Positions 1,343 through 5,643 of a stretch of DNA of 32,303 bases are shown here, piece by piece (positions within the stretch are counted from its first letter, which is position 1; each line of letters begins with the position of its first letter). Made by a program: the position numbers and the translations under genes. Source of the DNA: a virus; the IMG/VR virus record IMGVR_UViG_3300015366_000030, positions 1 to 32,303 of that record. One strand, written 5' to 3'. Below the pieces are notes generated by a model. It had not been told where the DNA came from and searched no databases. It saw only the letters and a list, made by a program, of their open reading frames with translations.

Positions 1343-1617
1343 GACACGCAGCTCGAGTGGATTCAAACCAAAAAGCCATCGTTGATGCTTTGAGAAAAGC
1401 AGGCGCGTATGTTTGGATAATTGGCCTACCTGTTGACCTTTTGGTGGGTTACAGAAATCGCACGATCTTGGTTGAGATTAAAAGTAGCTCTAAATCGCGT
1501 TTAACGGGCCTACAGCAAGACTTTTTTGAGAATTGGTGTGGTGATGGCTTGGCAAGGGTTGACAGCCCTGAAGCGGCTTTACGAATGTTAGGCGTTATCA
1601 ATGAAATACGACCTTGA
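1339..1617 (+). CDS. VRR-NUC-like (PD-(D/E)XK) nuclease
   Basis: This 92-residue protein starts MRHAARVDSNQ and follows the pattern of small stand-alone phage VRR-NUC nucleases. An N-terminal basic helix (residues 1-25) is followed by the acidic residue in PVDLLVG (Asp33), then the strand VEIKSS with Glu46 and Lys48 as the E-x-K pair, then LTGLQQDFFENW. Known members of the fold cut branched or structured DNA, so a recombination or packaging role fits beside NinB. The ATG at 1339 overlaps the preceding stop (ATGA); the frame stays open to 1306, but the family begins at this ATG. The gene overlaps ninB by 17 bases. Confidence 0.8.
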   Translation: MRHAARVDSNQKAIVDALRKAGAYVWIIGLPVDLLVGYRNRTILVEIKSSSKSRLTGLQQDFFENWCGDGLARVDSPEAALRMLGVINEIRP

Positions 1618-2014
1618 CAACGAACCGCAGGCTACGGCCTTGATGCGCAATATTTGGCCCAAGATCAAGGACGCTTTAAACGCTGGCAGACAGCTCACGT
1701 TAGAAATTAAACCTGCCAAGCGGTCATGTCCACAGAACGATAAATACCATGCAATGATTGCTGAGATTGCCCAACAAGCACAACATTTAGGCGCTAAGTG
1801 GGATGAGGAAAGCTGGAAAAGATTTCTGGTGTGGCAATTTGCCAAGGACACAGGCTTAAACGCAGGCAAGATTGTTCCAAGCCTTGACGGGACGGGTATC
1901 GTCCAGCTCGGAATTCAGACCAGAGACTTTACAAAAGAACAAGCCAGCGAGTTTGTGGAATTTTTACAAGCCTGGGCAGCACAGAACGGAGTGACACTTG
2001 CGGAAAAAATGTAA
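1601..2014 (+). CDS. ninB: NinB-type recombination protein
   Basis: The 137-residue product matches the NinB (lambda Orf/YbcN) family in length and pattern. It has a basic segment with LTLEIKPAKRS and QNDKYHAMIAEIA in the first half, the central EESWKRFLVWQF, and a C-terminal QTRDFTKEQASEFVEFLQAW. NinB proteins bind single-stranded DNA and help load recombinases in phage recombination. The neighbouring nuclease and HNH protein support that role. The start lies inside the end of the preceding gene, and its end overlaps the TTG of the next gene, so translation is coupled. Confidence 0.85.
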   Translation: MKYDLDNEPQATALMRNIWPKIKDALNAGRQLTLEIKPAKRSCPQNDKYHAMIAEIAQQAQHLGAKWDEESWKRFLVWQFAKDTGLNAGKIVPSLDGTGIVQLGIQTRDFTKEQASEFVEFLQAWAAQNGVTLAEKM

Positions 2015-2459
2015 ACGGCGCGTCTGGTCAACAGACATAAACCCAATTGCTCACGCTATTTCGGGCGCTTCTATTGCGGACAAGGCATCGCTAGACAAAC
2101 TTAGGATGCACGAATTAGGCGCAATTGATGCCATGACCAAGGGTAAGGGAACGGTAGAAGATTGGCGCTGGATAGCAGACTACATGAACATTGCTGAAAC
2201 CATGGGCGTCAACGGAATCGGGCCAGAAGTCTTGCCGCATTGCCAACTTGCCCAACAAGCCTTGTTTGAAGCCGCTAAACGCTACGAAACCACAGGCAAG
2301 ATGGGATTGTCAGGATTGGGGATTAAAGCGATCAAAGATGTTTGGGAGTACCACGATTTGCAACGGACAAGCATTGCTAGGTCTGAATACGAGCGCATGA
2401 TTCAAAAGACCGCCAACTACATCAAGAGCCAAGGTAAAAACGTGGTGGAGGTCGTGTGA
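1998..2459 (+). CDS. Conserved phage protein downstream of NinB
   Basis: This 153-residue protein probably starts at TTG 1998, 6 nt after GGAG at 1988-1991; the first in-frame ATG is far inside. It is mostly helical. It opens with a basic tract (KKCKRRVW), has a region like PIAHAISGASI followed by LRMHELGAIDAMTKG, and ends with helices containing TANYIKSQGK. I recall similar proteins of unknown function next to ninB in Burkholderia-type phages. No catalytic motif is visible. Its stop overlaps the GTG of the following nuclease gene. Confidence 0.7.
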   Translation: MRKKCKRRVWSTDINPIAHAISGASIADKASLDKLRMHELGAIDAMTKGKGTVEDWRWIADYMNIAETMGVNGIGPEVLPHCQLAQQALFEAAKRYETTGKMGLSGLGIKAIKDVWEYHDLQRTSIARSEYERMIQKTANYIKSQGKNVVEVV

Positions 2460-2764
2460 GGCCAAAATTTAGCTATTTCAGGAGCAAAAAGCACCTGATG
2501 AACGTGGCAGACCTGCCATGCCAGAATTGCTACATTGAAGGACAAACCCAAGCGGCACATTCAAACTGGGCAGAACACGGCAAAGGACGGGGAATCAAGG
2601 CCAGCGATGAATATACCGCGGCACTTTGCCAGACCTGCCATACCGAGCTGGACAGCGGAGCCAGGCTAAACAAGGAGCAAAGACGCGATTTGTGGCAAAT
2701 GGCCTACCAAAAGACAGTAATCAGATTAAAAGCTGGCAATCTTTGGCCTGATGAATTAAAATAA
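2456..2764 (+). CDS. HNH-type nuclease, YbcO/Ref-like
   Basis: This 102-residue protein has the Cys/His pattern of small treble-clef nucleases found in phage nin regions. It contains PCQNCYIEG, then QAAHSNWAEHGKG, then ALCQTCHTELDSG, and a conserved downstream RRDLWQMAYQKT helix. His in AAHSN and His in TCHTELD are the likely metal and catalytic residues. YbcO and Ref-type nucleases process DNA during recombination; the order ninB then a YbcO-like gene is also seen in the DLP12 nin region. The start is GTG in a GTGA overlap with the preceding gene. Assignment to one named family is uncertain. Confidence 0.75.
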   Translation: MRPKFSYFRSKKHLMNVADLPCQNCYIEGQTQAAHSNWAEHGKGRGIKASDEYTAALCQTCHTELDSGARLNKEQRRDLWQMAYQKTVIRLKAGNLWPDELK

Positions 2765-2833
2765 AGGCGAAGGTTAAGCCAAAACAATTTGCAGTTGCCA
2801 CTTGGTCGGACTGGGGAAACTCGGTCGCCTTCA

Positions 2834-2909
2834 CCTAACACGCATGAGGATTTAGCTGCTTGAGTTGGGAGACTCAAGATTTGCGTCCCTAATCCTCAGC
2901 CGTGTTGGG
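2834..2909 (+). repeat. Long imperfect hairpin upstream of the terminase genes
   Basis: The arms 2834-2852 and 2891-2909 pair over 17 of 19 positions (one G-T pair, one 2x2 mismatch). Inside them is a second perfect stem, CTTGAGT (2859-2865) with ACTCAAG (2872-2878), closed by a 6-nt loop. No U-run follows, so it is not a normal terminator. It could be a structured RNA, an RNA-processing site or part of a packaging site. Confidence 0.6.
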
Positions 2910-2988
2910 TGTTAAGCCAGCACACGAGGATGTCATGTGTATATTTTTCTGGCTTTCCTGTACACGTTCAGATTGATGTGTTTAAGAG

Positions 2989-3123
2989 ATGCTGATTTCT
3001 GAACACAACGACCAAATCGTGCCCAACAACGACCAAAGGGGAACCACGCCCGATCAGCCCCTTGTAAGGGTGGACTTAAAACGTCCGTGGTGGCAGACCG
3101 GAAAGACGGTCATTTATTTGTGA
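2989..3123 (+). CDS. Possible 44-residue protein
   Basis: An ATG-to-TGA frame encodes MLISEHNDQIVPNNDQ, continuing through DLKRPWWQTGKTVIYL. The C-terminal half has the amphipathic, aromatic character of a real short protein. The ribosome binding site is weak (AAGAG directly before the ATG). The DNA also contains direct repeats and hairpins that may be the true reason for its sequence, so I rate it low. It fills part of an otherwise empty region upstream of the terminase genes. Confidence 0.3.
   Translation: MLISEHNDQIVPNNDQRGTTPDQPLVRVDLKRPWWQTGKTVIYL
3096..3120 (+). terminator. Weak possible terminator
   Basis: GACCG (3096-3100) pairs with CGGTC (3107-3111) around a 6-nt loop, GAAAGA, followed by ATTTATTTG. 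The stem is only 5 bp and the U-tract is broken. It could attenuate transcription between the nin-type operon and the terminase genes. Two other small hairpins lie just upstream (CCCT/AGGG at 3059-3070 and GGAC/GTCC at 3072-3086). Confidence 0.25.
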
Positions 3124-3163
3124 CTAAAATGCACTTAATCACTTAGAAACCTAAAGGATTAGC

Positions 3164-3493
3164 ATGAATAAAATAGAAAAAGGAAATTCTGCCAATTTGA
3201 CCAATCGCGGCAGAGGCAGGCCCAAGGGGGCCATTAATAAGGCCACCAAGACGTTTCGAGACACGGTTAATAGCCTGCTAGAGAATAACTCCGCAAACGT
3301 TGAAAAATGGCTTAAAGAGGTTGCAGAGGGTGACATTACCCGCGATGTAAAGCCGGACCCAAAAGGCGCTCTTGATTTGTTGGCTAAGTTGGCTGAATAC
3401 GCTGCGCCTAAGTTGGCTCGGACTGAGCATATTGGCGACCCTGATGCGCCTGTTGTTACAAAAATGGTCTTTGAATGGCAAGAACCGAAGTAA
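3164..3493 (+). CDS. Putative small terminase subunit
   Basis: This 109-residue protein lies directly upstream of, and overlaps by 19 bases, the large terminase gene, the usual place for the small subunit, which recognises the packaging site. It begins with a basic, Gly-rich arm (residues 10-25, RGRGRPKGAINKATK), as in DNA-binding small terminases or the related phage DUF5681-like proteins. A helical middle (FRDTVNSLLENN) follows, then GALDLLAKLAEYAAPKLAR and a short C-terminal strand ending VVTKMVFEW. AAAGGA 6 nt before the ATG is a good ribosome binding site. The function rests on position and general character, not a diagnostic motif. Confidence 0.65.
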   Translation: MNKIEKGNSANLTNRGRGRPKGAINKATKTFRDTVNSLLENNSANVEKWLKEVAEGDITRDVKPDPKGALDLLAKLAEYAAPKLARTEHIGDPDAPVVTKMVFEWQEPK

Positions 3494-5643
3494 AGCGGGT
3501 TCTGATTGACTATTCGCCTCGCAAGCAATTCCTTCCGTTTCACAATCGAAAAGAGCGTTGGGCTGTTGCTGTGGCGCATAGGCGTTGCGGAAAAACAGTT
3601 GCTTGCGTCAATGATTTGGTCAAACGTGGCCTAACTGAGGGCAAACCAGACGGGCAATATGCCTACATCTGCCCATTTCTTACGCAGGCCAAGTCTGTTG
3701 CCTGGCTGTATTTGTTGAGATTCACCGAAAACGTCAGAGCAAAGGCAAACGCTTCTGAATTGTGGGTTGAGCTAATAACTGGCGCTCGGATTCGTTTGTT
3801 TGGGGCTGATAACGCTGAAGCCCTGCGCGGCATGTATCTTGATGGAATCGTGCTTGACGAGTTTGCTGACATGAAACCTAGAGTTTGGGGTGAGGTGATT
3901 CGTCCTTTGCTGGCTGATCGACAAGGTTGGGCTGTGTTTATTGGTACGCCAAAAGGAAAAAACAACTTTTGGGACATATACGACAGCGCAAAACAATCCC
4001 CAAACTGGCATGTAACAACGCTCAGAGCCTCAGAAACCAAGCTACTGCCAGAGGATGAACTCAGGGATGCCAAGTCCATGATGAGCGAAGATCAATACCT
4101 GCAAGAGTTTGAATGTAGCTTTGAGGCGGCTATTCTTGGCGCTTATTACGGCAAAGAAATGAGAATTGCCGAGGAAGATGGGCGAATCACCCAAGTTGAC
4201 TACGACCGAAACGCTCCAGTTAACACGGCTTGGGACTTGGGATATACCGATGACACATCAATTGTGTTTTTCCAGGTTATCAAGGGTGAGATTCACGTTA
4301 TTGACCATTACGCAGGGTCTGGCTTGGCTATGGATGACTATTTGGCGGTCATAAAGTCCAAGGCTTACAAGTACGGAAAACATTGGTTGCCGCATGATGC
4401 CAAGGCTAAAACGCTGGCCTCTGGTGGCAAATCAATTCAGGAAATGGCACAAAAGGAGCTTGGAATTGGAAACGTCAGAATCGTCCCAGATTTATCGCTG
4501 CAAGATGGCATACAAGCTGTCCGAGCATTATTTCCACGGCTATGGCTGGATGCTGCACGCTGTAAGGAATACGGCCTCTTGGAATCTTTGCGACAGTATC
4601 AAAGGGAATGGGATGATGACAAAAAGCGGTATCGAGACAGACCACGGCACGATTGGACGAGCCATTGTTTTGTAGGCAACACAGAAGTATTGACACGTTA
4701 CGGAACGTGTCAGATAATGAACCTACCTAAAACTGGAGAGGTTCTAACATCATGTGGCTGGAAACAATACACAAATCCGAGAGTGACAAAGAAAAATGCC
4801 CAACTTGTGGTGGTTCGGTTTGCAAGCGGGAATTCGGTGAAATGTACGCCGGAGCATTTATTCTTGACGGAAAGCGGGTGGAAATCCGCAGAAAGCCTAA
4901 CGAAGGATTCAGTAATCCTGTCTACCTTGACCCCGTTACGCAATATTTTAATGGCGGCTTATATCGCCTATGGGCAAGTGAAAGATATTTGTCAAAAGGC
5001 GGCAAAAGGATTCATCGAGATGTTTGGGCTTCAGCGTTTGGGCCAATACCGCATGGTTGCCACATTCATCACAAAGATTCAGACGTTACAAACAACAATC
5101 TTGAAAATTTGGAATGTTTGCCTGCTAAAGAACATTTATCCGATACATGGAAACAACACAAAGGAAATAGCACAAAACACTTTTCAGACGCAGCGCGACA
5201 AAAAGCATCAGAATGGCACAAATCAGAAGAAGGAAGGCTTTGGCATAAACGAAACGCTGAAAAGACTAAAGGTTGGCTTAATTGGAAACGGGAAGAACGC
5301 TTATGCTTGCATTGCAAAGTGTCTTTCATGGCGCTTATACGCAAAAATGGACATGGTGACCAAAAGTATTGTTCAGGTAGGTGTAAAGCCGCTAATTATC
5401 GATTGCGTGATTAAAACCAATGAAATTTCTGATGTTTGGTGCATGACAGTCCCTAATGTTGAGAACTTTAGCTTGGGAAATGGTGCAATTGTTCACAATT
5501 GCGCAGATTCAGTAAGATATATGGCAATCGCTTGGCGCGAGGAATACAAGCAGCCTGAACCACCTAAACCTAAGTTCTGGCATGAGCAAACGCTCAATGA
5601 GATATTTGAGTCAACGCCAACAGCCAGACGGACTCGGTTATAG
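3475..5643 (+). CDS. Large terminase subunit interrupted by an intein
   Basis: This is the DNA-packaging motor, an ATPase followed by a nuclease. The 722-residue precursor carries a 278-residue intein (residues 398-675); spliced TerL would be 444 residues, normal for the family. Walker A is HRRCGKT ending at Thr41, Walker B with catalytic Glu is IVLDEF (Asp128, Glu129), and FIGTPKG (155-161) is the coupling motif. The RNase H-like nuclease shows WDLGYTDDT (Asp254) and the final motif HxxDxxRY, which is rebuilt only after splicing from DWTSH (393-397) and CADSVRY (Asp678). The start ATG at 3475 overlaps the small subunit gene. Packaging activity should depend on protein splicing, because the last nuclease motif is split by the intein. 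Confidence 0.93.
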   Translation: MARTEVKRVLIDYSPRKQFLPFHNRKERWAVAVAHRRCGKTVACVNDLVKRGLTEGKPDGQYAYICPFLTQAKSVAWLYLLRFTENVRAKANASELWVELITGARIRLFGADNAEALRGMYLDGIVLDEFADMKPRVWGEVIRPLLADRQGWAVFIGTPKGKNNFWDIYDSAKQSPNWHVTTLRASETKLLPEDELRDAKSMMSEDQYLQEFECSFEAAILGAYYGKEMRIAEEDGRITQVDYDRNAPVNTAWDLGYTDDTSIVFFQVIKGEIHVIDHYAGSGLAMDDYLAVIKSKAYKYGKHWLPHDAKAKTLASGGKSIQEMAQKELGIGNVRIVPDLSLQDGIQAVRALFPRLWLDAARCKEYGLLESLRQYQREWDDDKKRYRDRPRHDWTSHCFVGNTEVLTRYGTCQIMNLPKTGEVLTSCGWKQYTNPRVTKKNAQLVVVRFASGNSVKCTPEHLFLTESGWKSAESLTKDSVILSTLTPLRNILMAAYIAYGQVKDICQKAAKGFIEMFGLQRLGQYRMVATFITKIQTLQTTILKIWNVCLLKNIYPIHGNNTKEIAQNTFQTQRDKKHQNGTNQKKEGFGINETLKRLKVGLIGNGKNAYACIAKCLSWRLYAKMDMVTKSIVQVGVKPLIIDCVIKTNEISDVWCMTVPNVENFSLGNGAIVHNCADSVRYMAIAWREEYKQPEPPKPKFWHEQTLNEIFESTPTARRTRL
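4735..4741 (+). promoter_or_regulatory. Ribosome binding site inside the intein for the nested HNH gene
   Basis: GGAGAGG lies 10 nt upstream of ATG 4752. In the terminase frame the same bases encode part of the intein (TGEVL), so the site is maintained inside coding DNA. It supports independent translation of the out-of-frame endonuclease. Confidence 0.55.
4752..5414 (+). CDS. HNH homing endonuclease nested out of frame in the intein
   Basis: A 220-residue ORF lies wholly within the intein, in a frame shifted by two bases from the terminase. The product has a zinc knuckle at the N-terminus (CPTCGG, Cys16/Cys19), a middle like LDPVTQYFNGGLYRLW, and a classical HNH core at residues 83-125: KRIHRDVW, then GCHIHHKDSD with His106/His107, then NNNLENLEC with Asn119. 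A C-terminal Cys cluster (CLHCKVSF and YCSGRCKAA) resembles a zinc finger. HNH homing enzymes cut intein-free alleles and drive copying of the element by repair. Normally the endonuclease is fused in frame with its intein; here it would be a separate protein. GGAGAGG upstream supports its own start. A later ATG at codon 31 is possible. Confidence 0.85.
   Translation: MWLETIHKSESDKEKCPTCGGSVCKREFGEMYAGAFILDGKRVEIRRKPNEGFSNPVYLDPVTQYFNGGLYRLWASERYLSKGGKRIHRDVWASAFGPIPHGCHIHHKDSDVTNNNLENLECLPAKEHLSDTWKQHKGNSTKHFSDAARQKASEWHKSEEGRLWHKRNAEKTKGWLNWKREERLCLHCKVSFMALIRKNGHGDQKYCSGRCKAANYRLRD

Follow-up and report, generated by a model that had tools for sequence, protein, structure and literature searches.

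How can a phage terminase gene remain readable across a stretch of DNA that encodes an HNH endonuclease in another frame, and what are the two products? This question is raised by a locus in the window analyzed here, i.e., the whole stretch of 32,303 nt that corresponds to positions 1 to 32,303 of IMG/VR record IMGVR_UViG_3300015366_000030. The terL/intein frame (3475–5643) comprises 722 codons without a stop across its entire span, and the HNH open reading frame (ORF; 220 aa) begins on the third base of a terL codon, i.e., in the −1 (= +2) frame (Table 1). An earlier sequence-only reading of this DNA had described an open terminase/intein frame and a 220-residue HNH ORF shifted by two; coordinates, lengths, and frames all agree with our results. 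A second, unrelated small HNH-like protein (phrog_131, DUF968) is encoded upstream of the terminase genes (window positions 2456–2764).

Table 1. Features of the terL locus, its intein, and the nested HNH gene (positions refer to the window).
Feature	Position	Strand	Evidence
terL N-extein (TerL ATPase domain and most of the C-terminal part)	3475–4665	+	Pfam Terminase_6N at residues 36–218; 99% identity to the intein-less L120 terL
Intein, 278 aa, Cys1 ... His277-Asn278, inserted after HDWTSH	4666–5499	+	Intein_splicing; TIGR01445/TIGR01443; L120 empty site; structure match
Hint N-terminal part, intein residues 1–88	4666–4929	+	AlphaFold pLDDT ~89–98 per block of 10
Sigma70-like promoter TTGACA-17-GATAAT within intein codons 9–18	4690–4718	+	11/12 consensus; position shared by 40 relatives, exceeding codon constraint
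Perfect inverted repeat ACACGTT-ACGG-AACGTGT between −35 and −10, operator-like	4693–4710	+	Synonymous-codon excess
Shine–Dalgarno-like GGAGAGG, 10 nt 5' of the HNH ATG	4735–4741	+	GGxGAGGT kept in relatives
HNH endonuclease gene, 220 aa, −1 frame of terL	4752–5414	+	HNH_3 1.3e-14; phrog_15471 6.5e-23; conserved in relatives
Stretch conserved in both frames (HNH residues 1–55 over the Hint N-terminal part)	4752–4916	+	Codon-phase diversity; resampling; terL control
Intein-frame middle, residues 89–239; open, hardly conserved as protein, predicted disordered	4930–5382	+	Resampling; AlphaFold
HNH_3 catalytic motif, HNH residues 86–128 (H106/H107, N114/N115, H128)	5007–5135	+	Pfam; invariant columns
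HNH C-terminal Cys cluster (C185, C188, C207, C211)	5304–5384	+	Invariant in all aligned relatives
Hint C-terminal part, residues 240–278, blocks F and G	5383–5499	+	pLDDT at least 95; TIGR01443
terL C-extein, first residue Cys as +1 nucleophile (Gly in the empty homologue)	5500–5643	+	L120 comparison

To the host frame first. Profile searches identified the insert as an intein, with a match to Pfam Intein_splicing (4e-10) and to the NCBIfam models TIGR01445 and TIGR01443, which represent the N- and C-terminal splicing regions. Cys1, the block-B residues Thr61 and His64, and Asn278 are invariant across the inteins of relatives, whose junctions are intact, with Cys1 at the start, mostly His-Asn at the end, and Cys, Ser, or Thr as the +1 residue. 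The sequence hallmarks of an intein are all present, i.e., blocks A/B and F/G, Cys or Ser at position 1, the TxxH motif, the terminal Asn, and Cys, Ser, or Thr at +1. The AlphaFold model of the intein was confident at residues 1–88 and ~240–278 and disordered in between; Foldseek matched it to the DnaB, RecA, and gp41-1 inteins, and the intein profile picked up the gp41-1 intein at 2e-13. We interpret the window intein as a complete Hint domain, and infer from the intact domain and its catalytic residues that it splices. It is not a canonical intein with an in-frame endonuclease, as the HNH sits in the −1 frame, and it does not represent a fractured gene with a split intein, as terL is a single ORF. 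A known intron was rejected: no Rfam family reached threshold anywhere in the window, so there is no described intron in it.

The product of the nested ORF matched Pfam HNH_3 above the gathering cut-off (residues 86–128) as well as HNH endonuclease families of PHROGs, including phrog_15471 (E-values in Table 1). Residues H106, H107, H128, and C185/C188/C207/C211 are invariant across relatives; they include the His106/His107 core and the C-terminal Cys cluster described earlier from the sequence alone. C16 and C19 are at least 90% conserved among relatives in which the N-terminal extension is present. AlphaFold folded the HNH-frame product well (mean pLDDT 84). Its top match among PDB structures was the homing endonuclease I-HmuI, albeit a weak one (E 0.05), and a PDB sequence search with the HNH profile gave no match.

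We then compared 93 related loci, some of which are near-copies. The terL/intein frame was open across the whole HNH ORF in 86 of them; the other seven are free-standing HNH genes, mostly located beside terL. The HNH lies in the same −1 phase in 85 of the 86 nested loci, and this relation to terL is found in close IMG/VR relatives (~61% HNH identity) and in isolate phages of Tetrasphaera, Acinetobacter, and Rhodobacteraceae. Furthermore, 12 loci with the same nested layout come from bacterial genome records (Bacteroidota, Bacillota, Actinomycetota, Pseudomonadota, and Myxococcota) and are apparently terL genes of prophages. Roughly a hundred sequenced phages and prophages retain the nested arrangement. 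The only nested case with the HNH gene in the other alternative frame is the terminase intein of L101 (positions 1398–3689), whose frame, on sequence grounds, suggests an independent nesting event. In a Methanimicrococcus metagenome-assembled genome (L117, positions 2300–3670), the nested intein and HNH frames are each interrupted once, by TAG only (host frame 3416, HNH 3409). Reading TAG as pyrrolysine would open both frames, and the family of Methanimicrococcus has the pyrrolysine pathway. Regarding annotation, the nested HNH lies unannotated under the large terminase in three GenBank phage genomes, i.e., L002 (Tetrasphaera TJE1), L003 (Rhodobacteraceae LS06-2018-MD07), and L004 (Acinetobacter Highwayman).

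Two findings would have refuted the sequence-only reading, namely a sequencing frameshift that conceals an in-frame HNH domain, and homologues in which only one frame stays open. The former is excluded by dozens of independent contigs and by isolate phages that share the −1 relation with both frames intact, and the latter did not occur, since homologues keep both frames open. We found nothing in favor of the second open frame being due to chance or a sequencing artefact, and we discount this explanation altogether: besides the dozens of independent assemblies, in 20,000 intein-length sequences of random codons, an open −1 frame of 220 codons was never retained. When the synonymous HNH codons were permuted with the amino acids fixed, the intein frame stayed open in one of 300 trials (3.9 stops expected in the window, 0 observed), and in the reverse test, with intein-frame codons permuted, the HNH frame almost never stayed open. 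The third frame of the window contains 20 stops, and the seven free-standing HNH relatives carry 1–10 stops in the intein-equivalent frame, matching the prediction from their sequences. Judged by these permutations, the openness of the intein frame across the HNH is selected, and stops are actively avoided.

How the constraint is divided between the frames was analyzed in the close clade (41 members below 88% HNH identity). Codon-phase diversity in 41 relatives revealed that HNH codons 1–40 vary most at intein third positions, and HNH codons 61–220 most at HNH third positions. In a two-way resampling, HNH identity exceeded the intein-derived expectation everywhere (observed versus predicted, 0.58 vs. 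0.28 for codons 21–40 and 0.66 vs. 0.22 for codons 81–110). Intein identity was strongly above the HNH-derived expectation up to HNH codon 55 (0.68 vs. 0.27 for codons 21–40), only weakly above it at codons 56–110, and equal to the HNH-predicted value at codons 111–200 (0.25/0.24, 0.27/0.27, and 0.23/0.24). As a control, the −1 frame of terL outside the intein gave just the by-product (null) value, which demonstrates that the test is not inflated by common descent. The profile points to a clear double protein constraint over ~165 nt, and to most of the remaining overlap being HNH sequence that needs only stop avoidance in the intein frame. The earlier statement that about 80% of the intein is dual-coding is therefore correct geometrically (663 of 834 nt), whereas clear conservation of both frames is limited to about the first 165 nt of the HNH ORF. 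That the middle residues of the intein frame are a by-product of the HNH, as had also been proposed, holds for HNH codons ~110–200.

This lack of protein conservation in the middle of the intein frame is also what would be expected if the intein were a fossil, the HNH being the sole active part and TerL keeping the insert unspliced, as has been suggested for the ShiLan domain. We regard such a fossil as scarcely credible: conservation of the Hint N part far exceeds that of a by-product, the four residues Cys1, Thr61, His64, and Asn278 do not vary and are complemented by Cys, Ser, or Thr at +1, and the permutation revealed active stop avoidance. In addition, the insert is located in a conserved TerL motif, and L212, a relative without HNH, retains a mini-intein.

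The terL gene of L120 allowed a direct comparison with an empty site. It shares 99% amino-acid identity with the window over the N-extein, is uninterrupted, and has neither intein nor HNH, while the flanks of both loci are collinear (~93% nucleotide identity). The empty site reads HDWTSH/GADSVRYM and the filled one HDWTSH/intein/CADSVRYM, i.e., Gly at the +1 position in L120 is Cys in the window. This constitutes an exact insertion into a gene that exists without the intein, and given the 99% identity of the empty terL, the 834-bp element entered the window terL recently and exactly. In 741 pairs of relatives, HNH identity averages 55%, exceeds extein identity in 92% of the pairs, and hardly depends on it, being ~55% both for exteins with less than 30% identity and for exteins with 50–60% identity. 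Such near independence of HNH similarity from terL similarity is as expected for a mobile element. Moreover, closely related elements occupy several positions 1–4 residues apart within HDW.SH. On the strength of these comparisons, the element has spread horizontally; cleavage of DNA by the HNH is an inference.

The HNH could alternatively be a packaging partner of TerL that merely happens to be nested, rather than a homing enzyme. HNH proteins adjoining terminase genes can aid cos cleavage (HK97, PMC10448857), and related free-standing HNH genes adjoin terL in some phages. However, the L120 terL, lacking both intein and HNH, indicates that packaging does not need the HNH there, and the HNH does not follow the terL lineage. 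We therefore consider a packaging role of this kind unlikely.

Regarding the production of the HNH protein, we searched the intein codons of 40 relatives for expression signals. ATG serves as the HNH start in 31 of the 40, and the intein codon that supplies its A ends in A in 36 of the 40, although the amino acid of this codon is variable. GGxGAGGT is located 10 nt upstream of the start in most relatives, and GAG accounts for 32 of the 35 glutamate codons at this Shine–Dalgarno (SD) site. The promoter-like element scored above its own codon-resampled mean in all 40 relatives (average 10.1 vs. 7.9 of 12). Codon choice was strongly fixed for Leu9 (TTG in 34/37, 6 expected) and Ile17 (ATA in 36/38, 7 expected), and equally so for the spacer codons Arg11 (CGT in 37/37) and Gly13 (GGA in 34/39). 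These counts are inflated by the kinship of the relatives; however, the adjacent Thr10 codon varies (ACA 18, ACG 18, ACT 4), so that inertia alone does not explain the fixed neighboring codons. Across all of IMG/VR, the DNA pattern of promoter and spacer was found in 36 stretches, each at the same place in a terL intein; L212 lacks most of the HNH, and HNH sequence follows downstream in all others (for L221, this was judged from its host protein, which matches L216). In distant nested copies, no SD-like site was found in about half, and promoter matches were weaker and not at a fixed place. Judging from the consensus matches, the HNH gene appears to be equipped with a promoter, SD, and ATG of its own, the use of which is inferred, and the earlier proposal of a free enzyme made from an internal start gains support from their conservation.

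The promoter spacer further contains an inverted repeat, whose 7-bp arms are perfect in the window, with 4.9 paired positions compared to 2.6 expected by synonymous resampling. Covariation of the arms was not clearly above shuffles (42 of 500 shuffles were at least as high), and the dyad thus rests on the synonymous-codon excess alone. The repeat may be an operator, and any regulation through it is inferred. An operator that resembles the homing site, in the style of T4 I-TevI, was not supported: across 40 relatives, each operator was no more similar to its own joined flanks than to stretches elsewhere in terL (mean P 0.48). The value for the window operator versus the L120 empty site (P 0.04) was not counted as evidence.

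Nearly all copies have the HNH exactly in the −1 frame of the host gene, which would also fit programmed −1 frameshifting or bypassing, with the HNH fused to the N-terminal part of the intein. We rejected programmed frameshifting, as no conserved −1 slippery site was present in the 30 of 41 relatives that were scanned; 14 of the 30 had any slippery heptamer at all, and these were scattered and well inside the HNH ORF. Furthermore, conservation of the HNH start codon, SD, and promoter exceeds what codon constraint would produce, the HNH frame of the window has a stop only 7 codons before the ATG, and L101 uses the other frame. Production as a fusion is therefore very improbable.

We consider it quite probable that the locus harbors a mobile terL intein whose mobility enzyme is a separate, nested gene, with splicing, HNH translation, and cleavage being inferred without experiment. 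The terL mRNA would be translated straight through the intein, and the Hint domain (intein residues 1–88 and 240–278) would excise itself and join the TerL exteins. The ~150 residues between the Hint halves would be an HNH by-product that the protein accommodates as a disordered loop where inteins usually harbor their endonuclease. The HNH itself would be synthesized separately, using the promoter, SD, and ATG that lie within the Hint-coding sequence, and would probably cut intein-less terL near the HDW.SH motif, whereupon break repair would copy in the whole 834-bp element, including both frames and the +1 Cys. A more far-reaching reading, for which we see an even chance, is that of a three-layer element, in which Hint N residues, a sigma70 promoter with operator-like palindrome and ribosome binding site (RBS), and the HNH start coincide within ~90 nt. 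The HNH would then be expressed autonomously and possibly be controlled by a repressor, and this class of elements would be widespread and could become mini- or split inteins. If true, this would provide a route by which split inteins arise.

Several relatives show other layouts. L212 is a natural derivative that has lost most of the HNH and of the intein-frame middle but retains an in-frame mini-intein of 129 aa. In L019 (Lactobacillus phage CL2) and L108, terL ends after the Hint N part and is followed by a free HNH gene, whereas the Hint C part and the C-extein are located in another ORF 3' of the HNH, i.e., the gene is fractured and the intein is split (L019, positions 506–2800; L108, positions 300–1800). 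Of this arrangement, the CL2 record lists just the HNH and the N-terminal part of terL. We infer that stops in the intein frame can convert a nested into a split intein. L022 contains an eroded HNH remnant, and the inteins of L020 and L021 lack an HNH. Nested and free-standing states are interleaved in the HNH tree, with at least nine changes of the nested label, three of which are forced by well-supported branches. In L114 (positions 2402–4100), a free-standing HNH gene follows an intein-less terL, and downstream of it the C-terminal end of terL occurs a second time (IRYFVYTVARQLNKWVI), as though the HNH gene brought along a new 3' end for its target. Empty site, nested intein, mini-intein, and split intein with the HNH between its halves form a natural series, which can be used to test how inteins gain, lose, and separate endonucleases.

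Inteins are described with the endonuclease as an in-frame domain, and introns with the endonuclease as a separate gene. The locus described here comprises an intein whose DNA also contains, in a second frame, a gene that appears to be expressed independently and that annotation misses, and it is a strong natural case of overlapping genes in which the division of constraint is measurable. In the open-access literature searched, no intein was described whose endonuclease gene is out of frame, which does not exclude a prior description elsewhere. Fractured genes with split inteins reportedly have a free endonuclease gene between two Hint halves. This layout is found in L019 and L108; in the window, by contrast, host gene and intein form one continuous ORF and nothing is split.

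The nearest published case in the open-access literature is the ShiLan domain, i.e., hidden HNH insertions in mycobacteriophage DNA methylases (Arsenault et al. 2025, PMC11855218), whose scattered distribution suggests homing. Both systems have an out-of-frame HNH within a phage gene and a host frame that is open through the insert. However, ShiLan has no intein or intron splicing domain and the host protein is thought to retain the insert (PMC11855218), whereas a complete Hint intein surrounds the HNH gene in the window, which thus shares the first property of the ShiLan type and not the absence of a splicing domain. In addition, no RBS was detected for ShiLan and a leaderless GTG start was proposed, in contrast to the RBS and promoter-like element found here. 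Canonical large TerL inteins with an in-frame endonuclease are known from mycobacteriophages (TerL1-b/-c, PMC5050341), and the window intein resembles them in its Hint domain within TerL, the extra sequence at the usual endonuclease site, and the homing-like spread. It differs in that its endonuclease is encoded as a protein of its own in a second frame, whereas the two normally form a single polypeptide, and in its position near the C-terminus in HDW.SH.ADA instead of the ATPase domain (PMC5050341). Finally, group I introns can contain endonuclease ORFs, like T4 I-TevI, which is autorepressed via an operator resembling its homing site (PMC2988022). As in the T4 intron, an endonuclease gene with its own promoter and RBS lies in a self-removing element of a phage gene. 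Here, with no Rfam intron in the window, the self-removing element is a protein, and the host frame therefore has to stay open through the endonuclease gene.
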